The translations under genes were made by a program, and so were the position numbers. This document shows, one piece after another, positions 53,529 to 60,361 of a stretch of DNA of 64,000 bases (positions are counted from its first letter, which is position 1; the number at the start of each line of letters is the position of its first letter). A model generated the notes under the pieces. It saw nothing but the letters and a program-made list of their open reading frames with translations, made no database searches and was not told the DNA's origin. This DNA is from Alphaproteobacteria bacterium 46_93_T64 (lineage in GTDB: Bacteria; Pseudomonadota; Alphaproteobacteria; Sneathiellales; Sneathiellaceae): positions 62,001 to 126,000 of the forward strand of contig MAAN01000022.1 in assembly GCA_002163135.1 (NCBI GenBank), in the 5' to 3' direction.

Positions 53529-54485
53529 TTCCTCACTCTTTCACTTAATAACGGGTACTTGACGAGCGGATCTACCAGCTGCAAAATTAATCAACAGGCG
53601 ACGTTTTGATCTCGGCTACAAACTCCGCCGCTGTGTCAATAGCAAGCGATTAAATGAACAACGCACGAACGATTTAATTCCTGGTCTTCACACGCTGAAT
53701 GTCTAACTCTTTAATTAGACTGACAAACTTCTGTTGCTATTTTCCTGCAACCCGAATTGGCTCTTATATGCTTTCCAAATGAATTGTATCAATTAGGTTA
53801 TTAATTTGGAGCTAATTATTAAAAACTAATATTTTAGGCGCGACTTATTAGGGTTGTTTCAGCAATCGACCGCGCTGTAGTTCCCTCCCAAGCGACAAGC
53901 TGCTGCTCGCCGATGCAGTTTCGAGAGCCGCTGAGCAGCCCGGCTATAGGGGTGAACCTTGGAGTTATGACGGAATGGCGGCATGGAATATCGGGGTTAC
54001 ATGGAATATAGGGGTTGGTATGTGGCATTTATTTTCCGCCTAGTGACGCATAAAAGTCCGTTCGGGGTCAACTTGAGAAGTCTTGACGGCCACTTATTTG
54101 TGTCCTCTCAGCCCCTTCAATCCGAACACTGTAAATGTATTTTCAAATTTCTCTGAAATATCTTCCGCTTAACGTGAAAATTCAGACTTAAACTCGGCGA
54201 TCTTAACGGGTCTCAAATGTGCCAAAAGGGGAAGCTCGAGATGCATATTTAGGAAAATGATTAAAGACTGCAAAGATGATCCGAATTACGAAAGAATTGC
54301 CACAATGCGTCCAGATACGGCCAAATCATCAATTTAGGGGCAGCAGCATGGCCGTAATTTAAACTCCTTCCATTTGCAGTGTGGTTTCACCATCTTAGCT
54401 TTCAATACTGATGCTATTAGAAAAATAATTGTTAATAGATAGTGGAGTATTATTAGGTACCAAATTTCTTATTGGAAATGCGCTT
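53529..54485. other. Gap before the hybrid kinase
   Basis: About 950 bases with no credible gene. It includes repeat copy 1 (54051-54231). A GC-richer part at 53840-54010 contains ATATTCC-like short repeats and may be remnant coding DNA that I cannot assign. Confidence 0.5.
54051..54231 (+). repeat. Dispersed intergenic repeat, copy 1
   Basis: First of four related stretches. Shared landmarks in order: AAAAGTCCGTTCGGGGTCA, CCCCTTCAAT-CCGAACA, TTTCTCTGAAATATCTTCCGCTT, TTCAGACTTAAACTCGGCGATCTTAA, GTGCCAAAAGG. Same orientation as the other copies. This is the most diverged of the first three. Confidence 0.7.
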
Positions 54486-56558: not shown

Positions 56559-56749
56559 TGTCCGCAATGGGTCATGAACGGTTGTTTTTACCGGTCTGAA
56601 AACACTTCCGCTTAGCCCCCTTATAACGGACATTGAAAATGAAATTTCAGATTTCTCAGAAATAACTTCCACTTTCAGTGCAGCTGCGGACATAAACTCG
56701 CCGGTCCTAAAAGGTCTGAAAAGTGCCAAAAGGCGACATGTCACGTGCA
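56559..56749 (+). repeat. Dispersed intergenic repeat, copy 2
   Basis: Starts at the first base after the kinase stop. Landmarks: TGTCCGCAATGGGTCA, GGTCTGAAAACACTTCCGCTTAGCCCCCTTATAACGGACAT, TTTCAGATTTCTCAGAAATAACTTCC, GCTGCGGACATAAACTCGCCGGTC, AAGTGCCAAAAGGCGACATGTCACG. It is the fullest copy. Confidence 0.8.
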
Positions 56750-56995
56750 ACGGTTTTTGATGCATTTAGGTTCCCTGTCTAATCTTGAAATTGAAAAAAA
56801 ACCTCGCCAACAAAATGAATATGGTCAATGAAATTTAACTATATATACATGAGTATTATTATGATCTAATGTTCATGTTCAAGGTATCCATGCGTTGTAA
56901 CGCAACGTTATTAATTTACCGAGATAGAATATCATTTTCCCGTTCTTTGCGGCTCATGATTTTAAGCGGACTAATCTGTAGGGGGGTTACAAAAA
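56750..56995. other. AT-rich leader of the VPLPA-CTERM gene
   Basis: No gene. AT-rich sequence likely to hold the promoter of the next gene, ending in an AGGGGGG ribosome-site-like run about ten bases before the ATG. Confidence 0.5.
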
Positions 56996-57540
56996 ATGAA
57001 CTTTGTTAGAAATCTTATTCTATCTCTTGTTTTCGGAGGTGTCGTTTCTTTAGCTGCCACCACAACACAAGCTGCTGATTTCAACTATCAGTTTACGGGC
57101 ACAGAAGGAACAGTATCAGGAACTATCACGCTCAGAGAAGTTAGAACAGGCTATTATACGGCAGAGCGTTTCACGATCAGAAGATACGAAAATCCAAACG
57201 GTACGATACGCACATTTACCATATTCATTGACATTCCCGATGTAGACGACCAAAATTTTATTTATAATACATTTAGAATGGAAGACGGAAAGATATCTTA
57301 CTATCGGTTATTTTCCAAATTCTTACATATGTTACCATTCACTGTGATTAATTGGAATTCGTACAGTAAAGTAGGTAATGAATTATCTCTTTTCTTCCCC
57401 CCCCCAAACAATAAGATATCCTATAGGGGAAACCTCACATTCTCACCATTATAGTCCCACTTCCTGCGGCCCTCCCGTTATACGGCGCGGGTCTCGCAGT
57501 CATGGGATTTATAGGCTGGCGTCGTAGTCGTAAAGCCTGA
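56996..57540 (+). pseudogene. VPLPA-CTERM surface protein, sorting signal out of frame
   Basis: An exported protein whose C-terminal sorting signal lies in another frame. The first frame (ATG 56996 to TAG 57454, 152 residues) has a signal peptide (about 1-26, ending TTTQA) and a strand-rich domain FNYQFTGTEGTVSGTITLREV. From 57454 the next frame reads VPLPAALPLYGAGLAVMGFIGWRRSRKA to TGA at 57540: a VPLPA-CTERM signal with its motif, hydrophobic segment and basic tail. The shift must be within 57427-57453, because the second frame has TAG at 57424. A C9 run at 57397-57405 is a further unstable place. Without the signal the protein would be released rather than sorted by an exosortase-type system. 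Confidence 0.82.
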
Positions 57541-57660: not shown

Positions 57661-57856
57661 CATAAAAAGGTCCGTTCAGGGTCATAAGCAGACTTTTTTC
57701 TTAGCCAAAATCACTTCTGCTCTGCCCCTTCATAGCGGACATTTGCATTCTGAAATTGGATTTCTCAGAAATAGCTTCCGCTTTCCGCACAGTTGCGGAC
57801 ATAAACTCACCGATCTAAAATAGTCTCCATAGTGCCAAAAAGAGACATGTCACGGG
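57661..57856 (+). repeat. Dispersed intergenic repeat, copy 3
   Basis: Landmarks: AAAAAGGTCCGTTCAGGGTCAT, CTGCCCCTTCATAGCGGACAT, TTTCTCAGAAATAGCTTCCGCTTTCCG, AGTTGCGGACATAAACTCACCGATC, TAGTGCCAAAAAGAGACATGTCACG. Its end is almost identical to that of copy 2. Confidence 0.8.
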
Positions 57857-58041
57857 CAATGATTTAAGAGCCAATCTGGTCCCATACTGGCTTGAATAAC
57901 TGGATTAGGAAAATGGCACCCAGGGCCTCTCATCAGAAGCAACAATACGCCCTATTAACAACAGTATTTTCAGTGAAACCAGTCATATTGATGTCAAACG
58001 ATTTTCAGCCCTTCAATCCGTGTAAATTTCATAAAAATGAG

Positions 58042-58671: not shown

Positions 58672-59439
58672 TCAAAGAACCAACTGCCCGGTAGTTAGCG
58701 CTTTTGCAAGCGCTTGTTCCCGTGTTTTTGCATTGAGGCGCAGTTTTGCTTTCTGGATATGCAAATTCACTGTAGCATTTTTCAAATTCATTTTTTCCGC
58801 TATTCGATCAGGTCGCAGCCCCGCAGACAGATAACGCAATACGTCTTTCTCACGGTCTGTAAGCAGATGTTTTTTATTAAAAAGCAATCCATTCGATGAT
58901 TGAAAAAACTCGTCATTTGTCTTGATCTCAAATCGGGCCATGGCTTGATTTACCATATGGAAAACGATATTCAAACTAACCCCGTGCTGGGTATAAAGAT
59001 CATGTACTTCCGCATCTGTTGTATTAAAAAATGCTGCACCGGCAGCCAGCGTGCTCCTAGAGGACGTTGGCAACGGCGTATAAAATCCGCAGCTTGAACC
59101 GAAATCTTTTAAATCTTCAAGCGCTTGCTGATTAATTGTATCTAGTCCTGTCCTGCCAATCCGAGTTTGACTATCAAATATTATCGTGTCCACACTGGAA
59201 ATGCAGTGTTGTGTAACAAAATCAGTTGGAGCATATTTCTTTGCGTGAAGCGCACGCCAATCGTTGTTCATCGTCGAAAAATACGCAAGCTGGCCCGGCA
59301 CACCATTAACGTAATTGAGGCCCGTTATGCTGTAGTAAAGCATGTGGTTTTTAAAAAGACGCCAAATATCCGCCTGTGAATTAGCAGATATTAGTTTTTG
59401 GTTAAAGGCTCGTACTCTATTGTCTTTATCGGAAAACAT
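58672..59439 (-). CDS. LuxR family regulator with autoinducer-binding-like domain (solo)
   Basis: A 255-residue transcription regulator from ATG 59439, behind GAGGG. The N-terminal domain (about 1-175) has the layout of acyl-homoserine-lactone receptors, with NNDWRALHAKKYAPTDFV in the ligand region, but several positions usually conserved there are changed. The C-terminal LuxR HTH (about 190-250) is clear: LLTDREKDVLRYLSAGLRPDRIAEKMNLKNATVNLHIQKAKLRL. No luxI-type synthase lies in the window, so it would be a solo. Ligand unknown. Confidence 0.88.
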   Translation of the reverse strand: MFSDKDNRVRAFNQKLISANSQADIWRLFKNHMLYYSITGLNYVNGVPGQLAYFSTMNNDWRALHAKKYAPTDFVTQHCISSVDTIIFDSQTRIGRTGLDTINQQALEDLKDFGSSCGFYTPLPTSSRSTLAAGAAFFNTTDAEVHDLYTQHGVSLNIVFHMVNQAMARFEIKTNDEFFQSSNGLLFNKKHLLTDREKDVLRYLSAGLRPDRIAEKMNLKNATVNLHIQKAKLRLNAKTREQALAKALTTGQLVL

Positions 59440-60361
59440 TATGCCCTCAACCTGTAAGCTTAGAAAAAGCACGTCACATTATTTTACATCAAACTAAATA
59501 TTGTAATTTGTATTCTATCCAAAGGTAGAGGTTTGGTTTATGTCCTAGTTTTAGGCAGCATAAGATAATGTTTGTATATAAACAATTTTAAGTAATATCT
59601 ATATGTATTTACAAAAAAATTAGGTCTGTATTTGAACCTAATATACCAACCAGATAACAAGCCTCTAGTTTTCTAGATAACTAATAGCTTCTCATAATAT
59701 CGTTTTTCATATTCTACTGCGTTGTCGTGACAATTTCCTTCGCGGCTCAAGCTAGCTTCCAAGTTATTATCTATAAGGAATTTACGCCAGCCCGGGCATT
59801 TATACTGAACGTATTGACCGGAATGTATCAACACTTTCGCTTCTGGTTTCCGCCTTCAGAATGCCATCTGCAAGGCATCGATAACAAAGTCAGCCCGTGG
59901 ATTACTTTTCATGCTCCAACCGACAGTATTGTGAGAGAACAGAGCCAAGACAATCACTAGATGCAGCCACCCCTTATAAATTCAAATAAATGTGAAATCT
60001 GTGACCGAGGCTCGATTAAGGCGATTGATCTTAAATTGGCGTGCCAGTGTTTTGGAACAGGAACCGCCATTTACAGTCAGCTTGTATTTGAAATCCACTA
60101 TGTTGAACGAAGCCAATCTATTGAACTGTTATACAAACGCTTCCTACTGACCGGGCGCCAGAATAACAAAGAGAAAAGTCCGCAGTGGGTCACTAGCGGC
60201 TGTTTTCAACAGTCTGAAAACACTTCCGTTATACCCCCTTACAACAAACATCAGATTTTGAATTTTCAGATTTCTCTAAAATAACTTCCGCTTACAGTGA
60301 CGAAACAGACATAAATTCGTCGATCATGCCCTTACAGTGCGCTAGCCTATTTGATTTTTGT
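59440..60361. other. AT-rich gap with repeat copy 4
   Basis: About 900 bases between the LuxR-type gene and a small gene. The 59440-59700 part is very AT-rich and probably carries the luxR promoter. Two small plus-strand ORFs (59727-59960 and 59961-60284) have no recognisable content and the second runs into the repeat, so I do not call them. Confidence 0.5.
60175..60343 (+). repeat. Dispersed intergenic repeat, copy 4
   Basis: Landmarks: AAAAGTCCGCAGTGGGTCACTAGCGGCTGTTTTC, CAGTCTGAAAACACTTCCGTTATACCCCCTTACAACAAACAT, TTTTCAGATTTCTCTAAAATAACTTCCGCTTACAGTG, CAGACATAAATTCGTCGATCATG. The last block (GTGCCAAAAGG) is lost. Same orientation as the other copies; the convergent 44-residue gene begins just after it. 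Confidence 0.75.

Follow-up and report, generated by a model that had tools for sequence, protein, structure and literature searches.

A VPLPA-CTERM sorting tail out of frame with its secreted-protein gene in an alphaproteobacterial genome with no recognisable exosortase

Introduction

Secreted proteins of the VPLPA-CTERM (TIGR03370) and PEP-CTERM (PF07589) type follow a common layout, with a signal peptide, a divergent body that fits no family, the VPLPA motif, a hydrophobic segment and a basic end. In Chlorobium tepidum, two PEP-CTERM tails occur with no EpsH, and low counts of this kind are regarded as possible degenerate systems in the accessible part of Haft 2006 (PMC1569441). The paper on gene loss in Ferrovum describes, in the portion available, the loss of the whole PEP-CTERM system and shows there no leftover tails (PMC4886054). 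As for genes interrupted by a change of frame, the available text of the GeneTack survey puts singleton frame transitions down mainly to indels or sequencing errors (PMC3711429). A full-text literature search for PEP-CTERM, exosortase and frameshift together found no paper, and the term VPLPA-CTERM occurred in a single one.

The gene described here has the same layout as the VPLPA-CTERM and PEP-CTERM proteins, but its tail is out of frame, the residues T-I-I stand where S/T is expected, and no exosortase was found in the genome. It resembles the C. tepidum case, as the accessible part of that paper presents it, in that sorting tails are present and the exosortase is undetectable; however, instead of two tails, a TIGR03370 search of the present genome gave 15 tails at E <= 0.05 and 23 places up to E 10 (PMC1569441). 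With the singleton frameshift genes and pseudogenes covered by the available GeneTack text it shares a single transition, seen in one genome, with no conserved counterpart found in relatives, but it departs from them in that its body is an orphan, which leaves no other species for comparison, and a paralog displays the intact state (PMC3711429).

Results

The window, that is, the whole stretch of 64,000 nucleotides analysed, spans positions 62001-126000 of contig C11 in a 4.0-Mb genome of 41 contigs (G000), with an assembly completeness of 99.85% and contamination of 0.06%. Its relevant features are collected in Table 1. As the first-pass annotation of this DNA had claimed, both frames are present in the sequence, and the signal-peptide ORF ends exactly where the frame of the tail begins. 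The N-terminus of the ORF, MNFVRNLILSLVFGGVVSLAATTTQAADF, is a clear signal peptide as read directly from the sequence, no predictor being used. The -1 frame opens with GTC at 57454, the G of the ORF's TAG, reads VPLPAALPLYGAGLAVMGFIGWRRSRKA and stops at 57538-57540, such that the start of the tail overlaps the stop of the ORF by one base and leaves no gap. The annotation had also placed the joining frameshift within 57427-57453, and this was verified, since a TAG in the tail frame closes that frame immediately upstream and confines the junction to this interval. A frame of the same base composition would stay open for 152 codons by chance with a p of about 4e-5. The GC content is 37% in the body versus 60% in the tail. 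Neither Pfam nor NCBIfam gave a family match of useful score for the 152-aa body. An AlphaFold model predicted from the single sequence was of poor quality (pLDDT 42) and was set aside.

Table 1. Features of the locus, in window coordinates.
Feature	Position	Strand	Remark
Start codon and signal-peptide region with the upstream GGGGGG stretch	56980..57075	+	DNA alignable with the intact paralog on contig C9
Signal-peptide ORF, 152 aa as assembled	56996..57454	+	ATG start; stop TAG 57452-57454
C9 homopolymer (Pro-Pro-Pro codons)	57397..57405	+	tail frame out of reach at every length
TAG in the tail (-1) frame	57424..57426	+	upstream limit of the frame junction
In-phase X_XXY_YYZ heptamer G_GGA_AAC	57427..57433	+	candidate, weak -1 slippery site; 0.043 expected per 9 codons
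Eight bases between F-S and the tail's V	57446..57453	+	a single codon in the paralog; probably the indel site
Stable hairpin at stop and tail	57453..57509	+	begins 19 nt past the heptamer
VPLPA-CTERM tail, -1 frame	57454..57540	+	VPLPA motif, hydrophobic helix, RRSRKA, stop
Dispersed intergenic repeat copies	54103-54232, 56560-56790, 57708-57865, 60178-60325		no Rfam match
LuxR-type regulator, downstream of the gene	58672-59472	minus	GerE domain, weak autoinducer-binding match

Searching the genome with TIGR03370 gave the tail 21.7 bits (E 0.0014), and a second search gave 20.4 bits, which is below the curated cut-off of 25.35, as is the case for most intact siblings in this genome. The VPLPA motif, the hydrophobic helix and the basic end are all present, though out of frame, and among the 23 places matched in the genome the window's is alone in having a short frame (37 aa). 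In the first search at the DNA level, the tail was 75-81% identical to six other tails of the genome, and a seventh, at C24:117968, was a broken relic. We then compared the 28 codons of the tail with those of 14 distinct intact tails of the PLPAA[LF]PLYG type from the same genome, and found 10-16 synonymous and 2-9 replaced codons per comparison; a K25 to S change was the sole residue shared with none of the 14. By a crude majority-rule parsimony over the first 24 codons, eight of the base differences from the C9-contig paralog fall on the window side, with no residue changes. As the differences are mostly synonymous, the tail has been read in its frame for nearly all its history, which leaves a recent break, an artefact, or a tail still translated by recoding.

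The residues preceding VPLPA follow a strong genus-wide rule that lies outside the 25 positions of TIGR03370. From the fetched loci, which do not include every hit of the genus, we gathered 84 distinct tail-bearing frames and could place the motif in 80 of them (25 from this genome and 55 from other genomes), the four that did not fit the pattern being dropped. Position -2 is S or T in 79 of the 80 placed tails; V, I or L precedes it at -3 in 75 of the 80, and A or V follows at -1 in 72. The tail frame of the window gene has T-I-I at positions -3 to -1, such that the I at -2 breaks the S/T rule, and any shift upstream of 57448, at the heptamer included, yields a lead-in unlike that of the relatives. 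In the upstream frame, F-S is encoded at 57440-57445, followed by eight bases up to the V of the tail. Based on this arrangement, a small indel inside these eight bases would account for both the frame and the lead-in, although hydrophobic-S/T pairs are not rare and another one lies a few codons upstream of this F-S.

The comparison with close relatives, proposed with the first-pass annotation, was run and gave no ortholog of the body among 24 other genomes (23 genus-mates and one further genome of the family), so the break cannot be dated on the tree; likewise, no homolog of the body was found in plasmids or in a scan of genome contigs. The sole homolog found is a paralog in the same genome, on contig C9, which is a single continuous frame of 193 aa and matches the first 50-56 aa or so of the body. 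Its signal peptide is 58% identical over 50 aa, its tail DNA 80% identical over 81 bases, and no relative was detectable for the middle of the gene. Because the paralog is continuous and can be aligned at the DNA level at both ends, the joined state is ancestral and the break derived.

Further decayed VPLPA genes were looked for with the C9-contig paralog as query, a choice that favours fragments in its own genome. Tails in frames shorter than 100 aa made up 3 of 27 own matches and none of 111 in the 23 genus-mates (Fisher p 0.007, with the bias of the own-genome query); a 28th own match, which is the N-terminus of the window gene, was left out of the 27. The three own cases are the tail in the window and two others. 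At C24:117964 (locus L008, 1480-1600), a lone tail with an internal TAG lies about 100 bp past a VPLPA gene that is intact; on contig C7 (locus L096, 1500-1935), a copy of this intact C24 gene was observed that is broken in several places. Two candidates from other genomes were rejected as decayed genes: a 91-aa tail frame in G011 is cut by the end of its contig (length 55947), and a 117-aa frame in G013 is a short intact gene. The rest of the VPLPA cohort appears intact, and decay is therefore not general.

A search for an exosortase-type gene elsewhere in the genome, also proposed in the annotation, came out negative: there was no match to TIGR04152 and none to PF09721 at E <= 1, whereas PF09721 found matches in 17 of the 24 genus genomes searched. 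Of the 17 genus genomes with a completeness of 90% or more and a contamination of 5% or less, 14 have a match, and the three without an exosortase carry 15 (this genome), 1 and 0 tails at E <= 0.05. At the three exosortase loci that were read (L047, L049 and L050), the exosortase is adjoined by a tyrosine-kinase-like AAA_31 protein and by a second protein, which we take to be a chain-length-determinant-like protein. The kinase neighbouring the exosortases of the genus-mates had no match in this genome, in a search run without a positive control.

The nine-C homopolymer reported for the gene is real, and the claim that a change in its length ends the protein early stood in part. Runs of ten or seven C lead to a stop at TAA 57412, as claimed for ten, but with eight C the third frame continues through to a stop at 57525-57527, the tail being absent; the assembled length of nine gives the stop at 57454. 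Runs of nine C number 4 in the genome against about 12 expected for independent bases. Of the four, the window's run alone lies within an ORF of at least 90 aa, and the C9-contig paralog lacks this run.

The surroundings of the gene include copies of a dispersed intergenic repeat, about 130-160 bp long and 74-78% identical to one another, two of which flank the gene; further copies were observed near VPLPA genes on contigs C24 (L057) and C34 (L059, partial). For the LuxR-type regulator, used as a synteny marker, a pattern-seeded scan of genome contigs gave no relative. A search of Rfam found nothing near the gene.

Discussion

The locus is probably an ordinary case of a recent indel, after which the protein is now secreted untailed or is decaying. 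This reading is based on the presence of two frames, an intact paralog and a tail that has diverged mainly by synonymous changes, together with the lack of an exosortase match and the other decayed VPLPA genes. We propose that a gene for a VPLPA-CTERM-type secreted protein received, between body and sorting tail, a recent indel whose length is not a multiple of three. The product as assembled would be a 152-aa exported protein ending just short of the tail, with the 28 tail codons untranslated, and it would presumably be released instead of anchored. Selection on the tails may have been relaxed owing to the loss of the exosortase. Taken by itself the break is ordinary, a frameshift of recent date in a surface-protein gene that evolves fast. 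Among the outcomes offered by the first-pass annotation, namely decay, assembly error or switchable expression, decay is the one best supported, and switching found no support.

The main rival to a recent indel is a sequencing or assembly error, in which the true gene is one frame and a base was miscounted, or a small misassembly arose, within 57427-57453. We hold this to be somewhat unlikely. The tail is still in good order, the frames are parted by one junction alone, the critical stretch holds a run of four G (57426-57429) and a run of three A, and the available text of the 2013 survey ascribes many singleton frame transitions to sequencing errors or indels (PMC3711429); nevertheless, the completeness and low contamination of the assembly argue against it, with a single base miscounted upstream of 57448 both position -2 and position -1 would be I, against the rule at -2, and the breakage of two other VPLPA genes goes beyond what a single error explains. 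That the protein naturally ends at 57454 and the tail is a remnant, from a neighbour or from a gene since replaced, seems quite unlikely to us: lone tails do persist in this genome, as at C24:117964, the GC content of body and tail differs and the middle has no homolog, but the upstream region, the signal peptide and the tail all match the C9-contig paralog in the same order, and the two frames overlap by one base at the stop with no gap.

Programmed -1 ribosomal frameshifting at the G_GGA_AAC heptamer, with the tailed form in the minority and the released form in the majority, is favoured by the position of the heptamer, in phase and directly after the limiting TAG. The expectation in Table 1 derives from 67 matches in 13900 codon positions of window ORFs of at least 250 aa, and simulating the gene from its own codons put the chance of one heptamer or more in about eight positions at 0.066. 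Of the 24 tail rows compared (22 distinct), none folds as stably as this hairpin, at -26.0 versus -21.0 for the next one; its stability is matched by 3.5% of synonymous shuffles, and its z is -2.8 against dinucleotide shuffles; these statistics on heptamer and hairpin are, however, post hoc. The usual spacer between a slippery site and its stimulator is 5-9 nt, and here it is 19 nt. Moreover, the product would have T-I-I preceding VPLPA, four further X_XXY_YYZ matches occur in the gene (three of them within the C run), no enzyme that would use the tail was found in the genome, and with no body homologs found outside this genome the conservation of the site has no comparison. Given the absence of an ortholog and the poor lead-in, we rank recoding low, as very improbable. 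Phase variation through the nine-C run is in our opinion extremely unlikely. The run is real, lies inside an ORF and has only three counterparts elsewhere in the genome, and surface proteins are typical phase-variable products according to the available text of the GeneTack survey (PMC3711429). On the other hand, no run length joins the tail, C runs are not commoner than chance, the remaining three lie outside ORFs of at least 90 aa, and the paralog lacks the run. Nor is the proposed switch between anchored, released and off forms supported: its frameshifted product would lack the S/T at -2, and no exosortase was detectable to do the anchoring.

Returning to a recent indel as the preferred explanation, the orphan tail cohort is a more interesting lead than the break. 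It could be that the exosortase gene is missing because it falls in a gap between contigs. A reading that we consider unlikely, yet worth stating, is that this near-complete genome retains some twenty VPLPA-CTERM proteins, their tails under visible purifying selection, with no recognisable exosortase; if that absence is real and of long standing, the tails must be processed by another enzyme, and the window gene would be one that has just escaped this system by losing its tail. For the genus, S or T at position -2 offers a simple test of a well-formed tail. With 15 tails at E <= 0.05, no exosortase match and genus-mates that mostly have one, this genome is a natural case in which the decay of tails after loss of the enzyme may be set against their use by something else.
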